Below are positions 30,050 through 37,572 of a stretch of DNA of 39,106 nt, in pieces (the first letter of the stretch is position 1; each line of letters opens with the position of its first letter). The notes under the pieces were generated by a model. That model made no database searches and was not told the origin of the DNA. It saw only the letters and a list, made by a program, of their open reading frames with translations. Both the position numbers and the translations under genes were made by a program. The stretch comes from Brevinema andersonii (lineage in GTDB: Bacteria; Spirochaetota; Brevinematia; Brevinematales; Brevinemataceae), in contig NZ_FOKY01000008.1 of NCBI RefSeq assembly GCF_900112165.1, forward strand, positions 1 to 39,106. The letters are read 5' to 3'.

Positions 30050-31216
30050 TTAAAGAAAATCAGCCAATAATTTTTTCAGATAGTCTAGCTTTTCACGGAT
30101 ATCATATTGATGGTTCCCAATAAAAAATCCGTATTTATCAAGAATGTTTGCATTGGAAAGTTTATTATGGATTTCATAGTCAAAAAATCTCAAAACTTCA
30201 TTTTTAGCAAAATTCCCAGCAACAATTGGACGACTTTCAATCTGAGCTTCTGTAAGTTTTTTTATTAAATCTAAACGATTTAAGCCACTTTCAGGCTTGA
30301 TAATTAAAGAAAAGCCAAACCAACTCGAAGTTCCGATTTCTTTTTGAATATAAAAGCGATCATCATTTTCAAAAATCTTTGTAAAGTAAGCAGCATTTTT
30401 TCGACGTTCTTTAATAAATTGAGGTAGTTTTTTTAATTGTTCGATTCCAACTGCACCTTCCATTTCAATCGGCCGAACATTATAGCCAGGAAGAATAAAA
30501 CGAAAACTCTCCTCAAAAGCATTATCTGATTTTATGCAAAGTTTATTTTCTTTAGGAAGATTTCTAGTCCATCCATGAGCGCGTAAGCTCAACAAAATAT
30601 GGTAAAGCTCTTCATCATCCGTACAAATAGGTCCTCCTTCCATAGTTGCCATATGATGAGAAAAAAATGTAGAATAAGATCCCATCAAACCAATAGTACC
30701 TGCCATTTTTCCTTGGAACTCTGCTCCAAGAGCTTCACAGTTATCTTCTATTAAATAGATATTCTTACCGGAAATCATTTTTTGAATGGTTTCATAGTCA
30801 TTAGGGTTACCCAAAAGATTGACCGCCATAATCAAACGAGTCCTATCAGATATGGCATTTTGTAGAGCATTAAGATCGTAATTGAGCGTATGAATATCTA
30901 CATCCACGAATTTTAATTTCAATCCGTATTGATACAAAGGATAATATGTTGTTGGCCATGATACAGCAGGCACAATAACTTCATCCTTTATTTTTAGGGG
31001 ATTGTCGTTTTTATAAAATAAAGCAGCTATCATCAATAAATTGGCTGAAGATCCTGAATTTGTAAAGACACAGTATTTACTGCGATTATATGCAGCAAAA
31101 TCTTGTTCAAATTGAGAAACTTTTTCACCCATAGTATACATGCCTTTTTCTAAAACAGAAAGGATTGCATTTTTTTCTGCTTCATCCCATGTTAAACTAG
31201 CTAATTCATACTTCAT
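30050..31216 (-). CDS. colD: PLP-dependent GDP-4-keto-6-deoxymannose 3-dehydratase-like enzyme (ColD type)
   Basis: 388 residues of the DegT/DnrJ/EryC1/StrS fold I family: KYCVFTNSGSSANLLMIAAL, VIVPAVSWPTTYYPLYQYGL, LIEDNCEALGAE (PLP-binding Asp). Where sugar aminotransferases have the Schiff-base Lys, this protein reads FFSHHMATMEGGPICT, with His in that position. A His there is the hallmark of the 3-dehydratases ColD and RfbH/E1, which remove the C3 hydroxyl. With gmd and an fcl/colC-like gene upstream in the same operon, the product would be GDP-4-keto-3,6-dideoxymannose, the precursor of colitose. Start: ATG 31216 after AAGGAT. Last gene of the operon, 15 bases after its neighbour. A CDP-sugar 3-dehydratase is less likely, because the CDP-glucose genes are absent. 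Confidence 0.85.
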   Translation of the reverse strand: MKYELASLTWDEAEKNAILSVLEKGMYTMGEKVSQFEQDFAAYNRSKYCVFTNSGSSANLLMIAALFYKNDNPLKIKDEVIVPAVSWPTTYYPLYQYGLKLKFVDVDIHTLNYDLNALQNAISDRTRLIMAVNLLGNPNDYETIQKMISGKNIYLIEDNCEALGAEFQGKMAGTIGLMGSYSTFFSHHMATMEGGPICTDDEELYHILLSLRAHGWTRNLPKENKLCIKSDNAFEESFRFILPGYNVRPIEMEGAVGIEQLKKLPQFIKERRKNAAYFTKIFENDDRFYIQKEIGTSSWFGFSLIIKPESGLNRLDLIKKLTEAQIESRPIVAGNFAKNEVLRFFDYEIHNKLSNANILDKYGFFIGNHQYDIREKLDYLKKLLADFL

Positions 31217-31231
31217 AGATAATCCTTTATC

Positions 31232-32191
31232 TTATATTTTATGAGCAGTACCAAGAGTGTTGTTGGACAAACGCTCTAAAAAATCAGCATAACTCTTTTT
31301 AAGGCCGACCTTTAAAGAGGTAGATGCTTTCCAGCCAAGAGAATAAATACGGGAACTGTCCATGAGTTTTCTAAGCATCCCATCGGGTTTGGATGTATCG
31401 AATATGATTTTTCCAGTATAGCCGACAATATCAGCAATTAATACAGCGAGATCAGAAATAGAAATATCTTCATTAGTTCCAATATTAATGTGCATTTCAT
31501 CCGAATAATGATTCATAGCAAAAATAACACCATCAGCATAGTCATCCGAGTAAGTGAATTCCCTTCGAGCTTTGCCAGAACCCCATACAATTACTTCAGA
31601 AATTTGGTTTATTTTTGCTTCATGAAAACGCCGAATAAGAGCCCCAATAACATGAGAACTTTTGAGATCATAATTATCATTAGGTCCGTAAAGGTTAGAA
31701 GGCATTGCAGAAATAAAGTTGCAGCCGTACTCCCTACGATAATATGAACATAGTTTAATTCCAAGAATTTTAGAAAGAGCATATCCTTCATTAGTTGGCT
31801 CAAGAAGACCGGTCAGAAGATATTCTTCTTTTATTGGTTGCGGACATTCTTTTGGGTAAATGCATGAAGAGCCTAAATAGACCAATTTTTTAACTTGGGC
31901 TTTATGTGCAGAAGAAATAACATTCATTGTCATAAGGGAGTTGTTATAGAGGAATTCGACCGGCTTTGCTATGTTTGCTGCAATTCCGCCAACCATTCCA
32001 GCACACATAAAAACATATTCAGGATTATGTTCAAGGAAAAAAGCTTCAGTAGCTTGCTGATCAATTAAATTAAGTTCTGAAGAGGTACGAAAAAGTAGAT
32101 TTGTATACCCAAGCTCTGTTAATTTTCTTATAATTGCAGATCCAGCCAGTCCTCTATGACCGGCAATGTATATTCTGGCATTTTTATGCAT
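31232..32191 (-). CDS. GDP-L-fucose synthase / GDP-colitose synthase-type epimerase-reductase
   Basis: 319 residues, short-chain dehydrogenase fold: [18 protein letters not shown] with the NADP GxxGxx[21 protein letters not shown] (Ser and Cys of the site), and [20 protein letters not shown] (Tyr-x3-Lys). The [17 protein letters not shown] and [14 protein letters not shown] blocks are those of Fcl. Fcl makes GDP-fucose, whereas its close relative ColC epimerises and reduces the ColD product to GDP-L-colitose. With the ColD-type enzyme immediately downstream, the ColC role is favoured, but sequence alone does not separate them. Start: ATG 32191 after AGGAAAAC; it overlaps the gmd stop codon by 8 bases. 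Confidence 0.88.
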
Positions 32192-33263
32192 TTTGTTTTC
32201 CTGCAATTTCCAGAGCTTTTTTTCTAGATAATTTAATATCATTTTCAACCATACGACGGACTAACTCATCAAAAGGTGTTTGTGTAGGATTCCATCCTAA
32301 TTCTTTTTGAGCTTTGGAAGGATCGCCGAGCAATTGTTCAACTTCAGCCGGCCGGAAATATTTAATATCAATATCTACTAATATCTTACCAGTGGCTGCA
32401 TCATAACCTTTTTCATCAATACCTGAGCCTTTCCATTTTATTTCAATTCCTGCAGCAGCAAAAGCCTTAGTACAAAATTCCCGGACACTATGCATTTTGC
32501 CTGTCGCAAGAACAAAATCGTCGGCATAATCAAGTTGAAGTATTTTCCACATTCCTTTAGTGTAGTCGGGAGCATATCCCCAATCCCTCAAGGCATCAAG
32601 GTTACCTAAGGAAATTTTATCTGCAATACCTGCTAAAATATCTCCGACCCCCATCGTAATTTTTCTGGTGACAAAAGTTTCTCCACGGCGTTCACTTTCG
32701 TGGTTGAATAAAATTCCATTAGAAACATGTATTCCGTAAGATTCACGGAAATTTTTTGCAATCCAAAATGCATATTGCTTTGCCACTCCATAAGGAGAAC
32801 GAGGATAAAAAGGAGTGGTTTCTTTTTGGGGCACTTCTTGAACCTGTCCGTAAAGCTCGGAAGTAACAGCATTATATATTTTTATATTTTTCCCCAATTT
32901 GAGGGCCCGCACTGCTTCAAGTAAACGAAGTGTCCCCAAAGCAATACTGTCAGCAGTATATTCCGGTATTTCAAAAGAAACTTTAACATGAGATTGCGCT
33001 CCAAGATGATAGATTTCATCAGGTCTAATTTGATCTAGAAGAAGGAAAATACTAGTAAAATCGGTAAGATCCCCGTAATGAAGTTTAAGATTTGTTGATT
33101 TATGCTGCAGTATTTTATCAAAATACAAATACTCGATACGGCCTGTATTGAAACTAGAAGCACGACGAATCATTCCATGAACTTCATAGCCTTTGTCTAA
33201 TAATTGCTCTGCCAAGTAAGACCCGTCTTGCCCTGTAATTCCTGTAATAAAAGCTATTTTCAT
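32184..33263 (-). CDS. gmd: GDP-mannose 4,6-dehydratase
   Basis: Converts GDP-D-mannose to GDP-4-keto-6-deoxy-D-mannose. 359 residues. NADP loop [17 protein letters not shown], then [18 protein letters not shown], the [20 protein letters not shown] block (Thr-Ser-Glu of the active site) and [16 protein letters not shown] (Tyr-x3-Lys). The [14 protein letters not shown] segment and the C-terminal [20 protein letters not shown] are also diagnostic. Start: ATG 33263 follows AAGGGAATTTTA; an ATG at 33296 would overlap the upstream glycosyltransferase gene. First committed step of the deoxysugar pathway encoded here. Confidence 0.96.
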
Positions 33264-33273
33264 TAAAATTCCC

Positions 33274-34050
33274 TTATTTTGGATTATAGCAACCAAATGC
33301 TACTTTAAGTAATTGGATTATGATATGAAAATTACCATTCCAATTTATTTTTGTAGGTGTTGGACCATATTTTGGATAAATTCTTGATTGAGGAATTTCT
33401 GTTACTTTATATCCTAATTTAGGAACACGCGAAGCAATATACCACTGGATTTCCCATGTGACAAAACAATCTCGAAACAAATCCAATCGTGTATCTTTTA
33501 ATATTTCGATAGAAAATCCTCGAAATGCGCTCATTGTTTCGGTATATTTTACTCCGGAAACTAATGACAACAAGGGATTTGAGAAAAATTTAATCGCTAA
33601 AAGCCGTGCTAAAGGGGTATTTTTATGATACCCGCCTTTCATGAATCTCGACCCTTGAACGAAATGAAAGCCTTCTTTGAGTTTTTGCACAAATTGAGGC
33701 ACAATTTCAACGTTATCTTTATTATTTCCATCAATTGTCACTACATACAAATAATTATCTTCGACGGCTTTTGCAAATCCGGTTCTATATGCTCGTCCTT
33801 GACCTTTTTCGAGAATCGTTATCACACCTCGAACCCCCATGTTTTGCAGAAATTCTTTATCTATTGAACCGTCTGTTGTACCTCCATCCATTAAAATAAT
33901 ATCCACTTGTGTATTCACATTGTGTTGTTTCAAAGTTTTCAATTCATTTTGAATTCTTTCTCCTTCATTCCAAGTCGGTATAAGCAATAGAGATTCAGAA
34001 CGCTTAGGGAATAATTCAAAAAATGAATGGTTAGGAACGTGTTTTTTCAT
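33274..34050 (-). CDS. Family 2 glycosyltransferase, dolichyl/polyprenyl-phosphate sugar synthase-like
   Basis: 258 residues. [20 protein letters not shown] starts a GT-A fold, [18 protein letters not shown] is the first Asp region, and [20 protein letters not shown] holds the DxN/DxD metal site. [17 protein letters not shown] and the absence of large membrane helices resemble the DPM1-like soluble group that charges a polyprenyl phosphate, rather than a polymerising enzyme. It may make the lipid-linked sugar donor for the membrane protein encoded just upstream. Start: ATG 34050 with GAGGAC 8 bases before. It ends 10 bases before gmd. Confidence 0.82.
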
Positions 34051-36089: not shown

Positions 36090-36553
36090 AAGATTTACCC
36101 TCTATTATCTAAAATTAAAGCAGTCTGTACTAGATACACATTTTTATTCTGGATTTTGGATCGATTTATCGTTTGTATTTTTATATATTTATTACTAATC
36201 AAATGATTTACTTTTATGTTCTTATTCACACTACAGTAATAGAAAATCTTGTTTAGTGTAAAAGATTGTCATATTGCATCTTATTCTGCAATTAATTCGA
36301 TCTCCTTATCTTATATATTTCGAGTATTGTTAACTAAAAATAAATTATATATGTAATTATGCCAATATCATTTCGAACAAACTACAGAGAAAATTAATCA
36401 ACATAAAAATTCAAGTATTAAGTTTATTTTTACCTATAAGAGGAAACATAAATGATAAAAAGCGAATGCTAATTTTTCATTTTTATTTCTTTTTGATAAA
36501 TAAAATATATTCAATTAATAGCATATACCCTATTTATAGAAAGAGTTTAAAAT
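36090..36553. other. Intergenic region between the sugar operon and the first RNA gene
   Basis: About 460 bases, AT-rich, with no supported gene. No convincing sigma70 promoter for the minus-strand sugar operon was found near 36089, so its transcription could start further upstream, possibly by read-through of the 36720-36554 RNA. Confidence 0.5.
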
Positions 36554-36720
36554 AAAAAAGCTCATAGGGTTGCATGCTGCTTGCCCTTTAGAGCTATGAT
36601 TAACCATATATCCGATAGGACATACAAACCGCTATGAGCGTTGTAATTAAATCCTTTTTCAGGATATATGGTATATGTTTGAAATATATGTAGTGCAGTA
36701 ATCTAGTCTAAAGGGTAAGC
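36554..36720 (-). ncRNA. Structured RNA gene 1 (about 167 nt)
   Basis: No coding frame of value. The predicted RNA starts with G at 36720, six bases after a consensus -10. Its first 14 bases (36720-36707) pair with 36592-36579 except for one A-C mismatch. Inside, 36672-36662 pairs perfectly with 36613-36603 (11 bp). The apical region contains a small hairpin CGCT-CAT-AGCG (36640-36630). The 3' tail (36578-36554) ends GAGC plus six T. Its 36567-36560 segment is complementary to 36639-36632 in the apical hairpin, and AGCTC/GAGCT (36595-36591 with 36563-36559) gives a competing local terminator stem. It is either a free small RNA or a leader that controls read-through into the sugar operon 465 bases away. 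Confidence 0.65.
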
Positions 36721-36726
36721 AAATAT

Positions 36727-36755
36727 ATTCTAAAATAGAAATAATTTTTTGTCAA
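36727..36755 (-). promoter_or_regulatory. Promoter of structured RNA 1
   Basis: Minus strand TTGACA (36755-36750), 17-bp spacer, TAGAAT (36732-36727). It has the same hexamers and spacing as the promoter of RNA 2. Confidence 0.85.
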
Positions 36756-36834
36756 GACATATTATTTAATCAATTTTTATTATATTGGAAATATAACGCT
36801 ATTGACTAATAAAACTAATGGAATGGAAAAATAA

Positions 36835-36865
36835 ACCTCTCATCTTATTTTGGATGAAGGGATTA
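36835..36865 (-). terminator. Possible terminator of the exported-protein remnant
   Basis: On the minus strand CCTTCATC and GATGAGAGG form an imperfect stem around AAAATAA, followed by TTTATTTTT, within about 10-35 bases of the stop codon at 36872. Confidence 0.45.
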
Positions 36866-36871
36866 TTGTGA

Positions 36872-37244
36872 TTAAGGATTGGATTTAGGTAGAGAGCAAG
36901 AAAGATACTGTGAGTTTTTAGACCAATCAATATTAGAGATAGTACGATAACTCGCATACAATTGATCGAATGTAGAAGTGTTTTGCGCGTTGCTTACTTC
37001 CTGGGCAGTAGGATTTGTTTTATATTCAGCTTTCATTAATTTATTATCCGCTGTTAAAATTACTCCGTAATAATGTAGATAAGAGCCTGCAGGTTTTGTG
37101 TATATTGCATTTGTTTCTGTGATAAACAGAATACATATTATAAATGTTATGTTTAACTTCCTGATAAAAGTAACCGTCGGGATTGATTACAGAATTGGTA
37201 TCCGAGGGCTTTCCTTCTGCAATAATTAACATTTTGAATTTCAT
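36872..37244 (-). pseudogene. Exported protein gene, frame-disrupted
   Basis: Two overlapping minus-strand frames. The first starts at ATG 37244 with an AGGAG site (KFKMLIIAEGKPSDTNSV...). The second lacks ATG, begins around 37150 and gives LNITFIICILFITETNA, a clear signal-peptide-like core, then YTKPAGSYLHYYGVILTADN, NPTAQEVSNAQ, and a C-terminal WSKNSQYLSCSLPKSNP to TAA 36872-36874. The 5' frame is therefore joined to a secreted protein by a frameshift, or the second gene has lost its start (an AGGAAG stands before ATA at about 37149). Family unknown. It lies 119 bases downstream of structured RNA 2. Confidence 0.5.
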
Positions 37245-37362
37245 TGGTTTTTTCTCCTAATTTTAATGTCCCAATTCCAACGGTACTAATAATTAAGGAA
37301 GTCTATTATTCATAACCAGTCCCTAAGAAAAAATTCAAACACACAATGAGTTTTTAAAATAC

Positions 37363-37537
37363 AAAAAAGCCCACAGATTTGTACGTTTGAACAACCTTTA
37401 TGAGTTATGAAATACTCCATCTCTTCACTTCTGAACGTACAAATTGCTGTAGGCAAGCTGATAGCATTCGATCCCGTGAAGATATGGTACGTCTGAAATA
37501 GAGATACATGGAGTAAAGTTTCAAGTAAAGGTTGTTC
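37363..37537 (-). ncRNA. Structured RNA gene 2 (about 175 nt)
   Basis: Same architecture as RNA 1. The predicted transcript starts with G at 37537; its first 12 bases (37537-37526, GAACAACCTTTA) pair perfectly with 37400-37389. Inside are ACTCCAT/ATGGAGT (37514-37508 with 37420-37414) and TCTTCAC/GTGAAGA (37482-37476 with 37428-37422). The apical hairpin is TTGC-CTACA-GCAA (37456-37444). The 3' tail (37388-37363) ends GGGC plus six T, and its 37387-37369 segment is complementary to the apical region 37454-37434 over about 19 positions with a two-base bulge. The only shared sequence with RNA 1 outside the promoter is the CCTTTA near the 5' end and its partner. A 37405-37668 reading frame overlapping it has no ribosome site and is probably not translated. 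Confidence 0.65.
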
Positions 37538-37543
37538 GATAAT

Positions 37544-37572
37544 ATTCTATATCGAATTTTGAATATTGTCAA
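37544..37572 (-). promoter_or_regulatory. Promoter of structured RNA 2
   Basis: Minus strand TTGACA (37572-37567), 17-bp spacer, TAGAAT (37549-37544), then six bases to the predicted G start at 37537. Confidence 0.85.

Follow-up and report, generated by a model that had tools for sequence, protein, structure and literature searches.

Short, dispersed, structured repeats of the BOX, RUP and SPRITE kinds occur in many copies in Streptococcus pneumoniae, are thought to be mobile and can affect neighbouring genes; enrichment of one functional class among the genes downstream was not found (PMC3049150). Mobile or repeat ncRNA motif candidates are defined by their count and by association with transposases, integrases, nucleases or helicases (PMC11109978). 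These two groups are the closest in kind to a hitherto undescribed RNA family that is confined, as far as tested, to the Brevinemataceae (Brevinema-type spirochetes). Like BOX, RUP and SPRITE, the Brevinemataceae family is dispersed, strongly structured and present in many copies per genome, but its copies have a near-consensus promoter of their own, a predicted pseudoknot and usually a U-run, their closing helix differs in nearly every copy, and the genes 3' of the units are enriched for one functional class. The family resembles the mobile ncRNA candidates as a structured motif with multiple copies per genome, although its main neighbours are exported proteins, some copies adjoining integrase genes. 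The promoter, the covarying and hypervariable closing helix (P1) and a putative pseudoknot terminator distinguish the family from both groups.

Other systems share single features with the Brevinemataceae RNAs. The 5' and 3' ends of type I toxin mRNAs such as hok and AapA1 pair over a long range; this pairing recurs here, but in RNAs that lack a conserved translatable peptide. 6S RNA has a similar size and a closing 5'/3' helix, but the Brevinemataceae RNAs differ in their many dispersed copies and their pseudoknot, and the 6S model (RF00013) has no match in the window's own genome. As in attenuators and riboswitch-type leaders, one strand (T) has two possible partners, an upstream element (X) and a downstream one (X2), and the end is terminator-like; unlike such leaders, many copies have no close co-directional gene, and the terminator strand lies within the pseudoknot. 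MITE-type repeats likewise have dispersed copies with unrelated flanks.

Two members, R1 and R2, lie on the minus strand of the window, the whole 39,106-nt stretch of Brevinema andersonii DNA that was analysed (contig NZ_FOKY01000008.1). The first-pass annotation had proposed that each starts with TTGACA-N17-TAGAAT, six bases and a G, and both promoters are present, at 37544-37572 for R1 (-35 box 37572-37567, -10 box 37549-37544) and at 36727-36755 for R2 (-35 box 36755-36750, -10 box 36732-36727). They are the only two TTGACA-N15-19-TAGAAT sites in the 39-kb window, where 0.13 are expected. Counted from the predicted +1 G (37537 and 36720), R1 is a 175-nt RNA (37363-37537) and R2 a 167-nt RNA (36554-36720), and both are very probably transcribed as predicted. 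Each is recognised by covariance models and folds far better than dinucleotide shuffles (MFE z -3.71 for R1, -4.96 for R2), which bears out their earlier description as structured RNA genes.

The closing helix lies where it had been annotated, its 5' strand (P1a) at 37537-37526 in R1 and 36720-36707 in R2 and its 3' strand (P1b) at 37400-37389 and 36592-36579; its pairing energy is matched by 1 of 1000 shuffles for R1 and by none of 1000 for R2. Inside it lies the P3 arm (R1 37476-37483 with 37419-37428; R2 36662-36672 with 36603-36613), placed, as P1 is, by the fold and by comparing pairing within and between copies. The apex of P3 holds X (R1 37434-37454; R2 36620-36639), and directly 3' of P1b sits T (R1 37387-37369; R2 36578-36560), followed in the sequence by a U-run (R1 37363-37368; R2 36554-36559). 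X and T are defined by their pairing: GCCUACAGCAAUUUGUACGUU with AACGUACAAAUCUGUGGGC in R1 (-26.4 kcal/mol) and GCUCAUAGCGGUUUGUAUGU with AGCAUGCAACCCUAUGAGC in R2 (-25.4 kcal/mol, as strong in none of 1000 shuffles). The folding plan first drawn for the two RNAs holds for the closing helix and misses the pairing of the tails after it with the apical loops. Nor are the two sequences almost unrelated, as had been thought; X and T are common to both, and so are covariance-model matches across the family. X2, a second complement of T, follows the U-run of R2 (36519-36534; z -3.46 versus shuffles); the corresponding element of R1 is weak and not significant (37334-37351; z -1.9, p 0.08).

R1 and R2 are almost certainly members of a real, structured, multi-copy RNA family. 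A DNA search of the three other Brevinemataceae genomes (G001, G002 and G003) matched an 87-nt stretch of R2 at 78% identity and returned several short matches, and the recurrent X and T pair was recognised on reading the matched loci. RNAalifold, applied to 12 long copies from the sister genus, picked X:T as the main helix unprompted. A long-type covariance model built from 12 long sister-genus copies, with the window sequences left out, recovers both RNAs in their own genome, R2 with an E-value of 3.6e-4 and R1 with one of 3.6e-3. A short-type model built from six short copies finds further copies in the window's genome, recognises the long type too, and matches R1 and R2, which were included in its building. 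The search of related genomes that the first-pass annotation had suggested did recover further copies: the family comprises about 54 full copies with predicted RNA lengths of 162-355 nt, at 11 loci in the window's genome and with 3, 15 and 25 copies in G001, G002 and G003, so that the four genomes range from 3 to 25.

The long-type model matches nothing in nine further genomes of the order, and the short-type model, run with Infernal's stricter filters on 296 Spirochaetota genomes, has 0 matches in the 292 beyond the four Brevinemataceae. Pattern matches in genome contigs outside Brevinema are scattered over phyla and probably due to chance, the pattern being short; the sole pattern match in a viral-contig search sits at the end of an unrelated gene. 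The earlier statement that R1 and R2 match no known RNA family is upheld by 4227 Rfam families, which at the gathering cut-off give no match for R1, R2 or the copies within 20 further loci; a permissive Rfam search of R1 and R2 yields sub-threshold matches only, none on the sense strand. The literature search found nothing on RNAs of such kind in Brevinema. Dozens of highly structured, separately transcribed RNA genes in one bacterial genome are rare, and this family joins strong comparative proof of structure to a poorly studied host group.

X consists of a small hairpin at the apex, YNGC-UCAUA-GCNR in type, and the UUUGUAY that comes after it; T, of the type RYRUACAAA-CUAUGRGC with U's next to it, is its reverse complement, and their pairing forms a pseudoknot. 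Every one of the 53 copies measured has X:T, which averages 18.7 bp and -24.6 kcal/mol. In the short-type alignment 11 of 18 pairs are changed on both sides, all of them in X:T, and in a mostly long-type alignment 16 of 23 are, in X:T and two small helices. None of 500 shuffles and no slid control attains the covariation score of either alignment; these alignments were fitted to the model, unlike the tests of pairing within and between copies. In 38 of 53 copies T is followed by a run of five or more U's, and the remaining copies still keep X:T. A near-perfect sigma-70 promoter, like TTGACA/TATAAT, precedes 44 of 46 copies (score at least 10.5 of 12.5), with a spacing of 17 nt in almost all. 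Comparison across the copies demonstrates a conserved, covarying, pseudoknotted RNA in the predicted fold; its predicted promoter is strong, and a U-run is usually present.

P1 and P3 covary as X:T does. P1 comprises 15-20 bp and begins 0-2 nt from the predicted +1. The compensatory changes in the 5'/3' helix that had been anticipated in further copies are found: P1 strands of the same copy pair at a mean of -27.2 kcal/mol versus -8.4 between copies, and a strand's own partner is its best in 44 of 46. Across the outer 12 bp, 636 pairs include 2.8% G-U and 11 interruptions, and most positions use three or four Watson-Crick types. P3, an arm that varies between copies, pairs at -24.4 kcal/mol within a copy versus -11.3 between copies. 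An alternative hairpin, P4, has no self-over-cross signal and was rejected as an antiterminator on that ground.

P1 is also hypervariable. In the copies G2C44, G2C46 and G2C8 (loci L041, L128 and L127), the RNA bodies are 89-94% identical and the outer P1 only 50-64% alike; both P1 strands are replaced together. Conversely, some distant RNA bodies carry nearly identical P1. The variability may reflect diversifying selection on P1 or gene conversion that swaps interiors between copies, and the family allows study of why a helix of this length changes wholesale between copies with bodies up to 94% identical.

The family is dispersed as a unit. BLAST blocks between loci typically extend from the -35 region as far as the U-run, and the flanking sequences are unrelated. 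In the window's genome, two copies form a 366-bp unit with one mismatch and different flanks (L172:1-366; G000, ends of C23, C3 and C18), and therefore represent a recent duplication. Because copies share only the promoter-to-U-run unit and one unit was duplicated recently, the unit is dispersed and probably mobile, and the family makes the spread of a structured RNA unit testable. The ends of the 366-bp unit show no terminal inverted repeats or target-site duplication, which sets it apart from MITE-type repeats. Copies occupy intergenic chromosomal DNA and sites beside tRNA genes, beside integrase genes and next to a phage tail gene. In G003 a full copy is followed by tandem 3' half-units (L144:5882-6252 and L139:307-551), which run from X to T, lack both promoter and P1a, and each bear a different P1b sequence. 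The assembly is interrupted at four contig ends by the 366-bp unit, one copy of which immediately precedes a tRNA cluster. A repeat of the uptake-sequence type was considered and rejected, GCTCATAG not being over-represented in the window.

The genes downstream suggest a functional bias. A signal peptide, called by a simple heuristic, is predicted for 17 of 27 same-strand downstream genes versus 30 of 186 genes taken as background from these loci (p 8e-7), and upstream neighbours show no such enrichment. The bias is seen in the sister genus; the downstream genes of the window's own genome show no link to exported proteins, and copies there other than R1 and R2 precede genes that presumably encode a prolyl-tRNA synthetase and a flagellar switch protein. 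Among the 39 downstream neighbours that were checked, 12 are encoded on the other strand; some genes downstream possess a promoter of their own or lie beyond a further terminator. The presence of a U-run is not linked to an exported downstream gene. Lipoproteins are encoded among the downstream genes, as are a possible outer-membrane barrel protein (its Pfam match lies below the cut-off) and, after several copies, a secreted small nuclease family of GmrSD_C/HNH type (L053:714-1124 and relatives); the gene downstream of R2 encodes a 671-aa protein without Pfam match. A hairpin that includes the ribosome-binding site often stands directly before the ATG of the GmrSD_C/HNH-type genes. At p<=0.05, 17 of 45 copies, among them R2, have an X2 no more than 150 nt downstream; in several copies X2 sits in a downstream hairpin overlapping the ribosome-binding site. 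If the exported-protein link holds, the family may add a layer of surface-protein control in host-associated spirochetes.

The leading interpretation, held tentatively and at somewhat less than even confidence, is that X:T, serving as a pseudoknot terminator, sets free a stable RNA and attenuates the gene next to it. Polymerase would first transcribe P1a and the P3 arm; T, on emerging, would capture X, and the transcript would stop, releasing a closed RNA with both ends in duplex. X:T and the U-run would double as an intrinsic terminator helix, which would couple folding to termination. Where capture fails, polymerase would run into the next gene, in the sister genus often one for an exported protein, and after read-through T could pair with a downstream X2. 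The unit would then serve as an attenuator in dispersed copies and, in addition, as the source of a stable RNA. Among the features of such an attenuator, X:T with a U-run is present in 38 of 53 copies and X2 in 17 of 45, most copies being without X2, and P4 gives no signal. The family makes a pseudoknot as intrinsic terminator open to testing. A broader proposal, unlikely as a whole, is a new class of mobile regulatory RNA, in which a cassette of promoter, RNA and pseudoknot terminator spreads through the genome, puts surface and secreted protein genes under RNA-controlled read-through, and acquires a new closing-helix 'address' per copy through paired strand replacement.

Rather than the neighbouring gene, the released RNA with both ends duplexed could be what matters, as a protein sponge, an RNP scaffold or an sRNA whose P1b-T strand stays hidden until opened, its neighbours being incidental. 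The copies' own promoter and, in most, a U-run would suit such a trans-acting RNA, as would the window's genome, where copies and downstream genes are set apart, in one case with an additional terminator in the gap. P1b-T of G3C118b, a short-type copy, has a long bipartite match to the leader of the next gene, which encodes a lipoprotein (L138:3680-4120, minus strand). A guide role for P1b on the downstream leader was considered on such matches, striking in G3C118b and strong in G2C26 and G0C1; they are not general, 12% of copies falling in the lowest 5%. T, moreover, drifts with X and is therefore no fixed seed, and a trans-acting product would leave the enrichment of exported proteins downstream unexplained; on balance this alternative is somewhat unlikely. 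More doubtful again is a selfish or decaying interspersed repeat, mobile, transcribed and structured without host function. The 3 to 25 copies per genome, the unit bounded by the -35 box and U-run between unrelated flanks, the recent 366-bp duplication, the copies by an integrase gene and in a prophage, and the partial and tandem half-copies would all fit it. Selection on the RNA is nevertheless implied by old, divergent copies, in which promoters are still near-perfect and helices compensated; terminal repeats and target-site duplication are lacking, and the exported-protein enrichment again speaks against this reading.

Two further possibilities are highly improbable. A type I toxin mRNA of the hok/AapA1 kind, with its 5' and 3' ends paired, would account for the long-range pairing and for the short hydrophobic open frames of some copies, and is largely refuted by the coding content: no single frame both has a start codon and stays open in the majority of copies, an ATG frame of at least 20 aa occurs in only 17 of 53, and none has a Pfam match. 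A variable 5' strand on a conserved scaffold resembles a guide RNA at first sight, as for an RNA partner of a reverse transcriptase or TnpB-type nuclease (retron, DGR or omega RNA), but PF00078 and PF07282 (TnpB/Cas12f) are absent from all four genomes, control genomes being positive, and no Rfam family matches. Retron, DGR or group II intron RNA and TnpB omega RNA are excluded on this evidence for the reverse transcriptase and TnpB/Cas12f protein families only. Two observations concern the surroundings of R1 and R2. A decayed repeat follows R1 in the interval between the two RNAs (36871-37075) and shares 72% identity with sequence close to where contigs C5, C16 and C17 start, the C5 copy having no intact frame. 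Downstream of R2, the minus strand of 30050-34050 reads, by eye, like a nucleotide-sugar and glycosyltransferase cluster.
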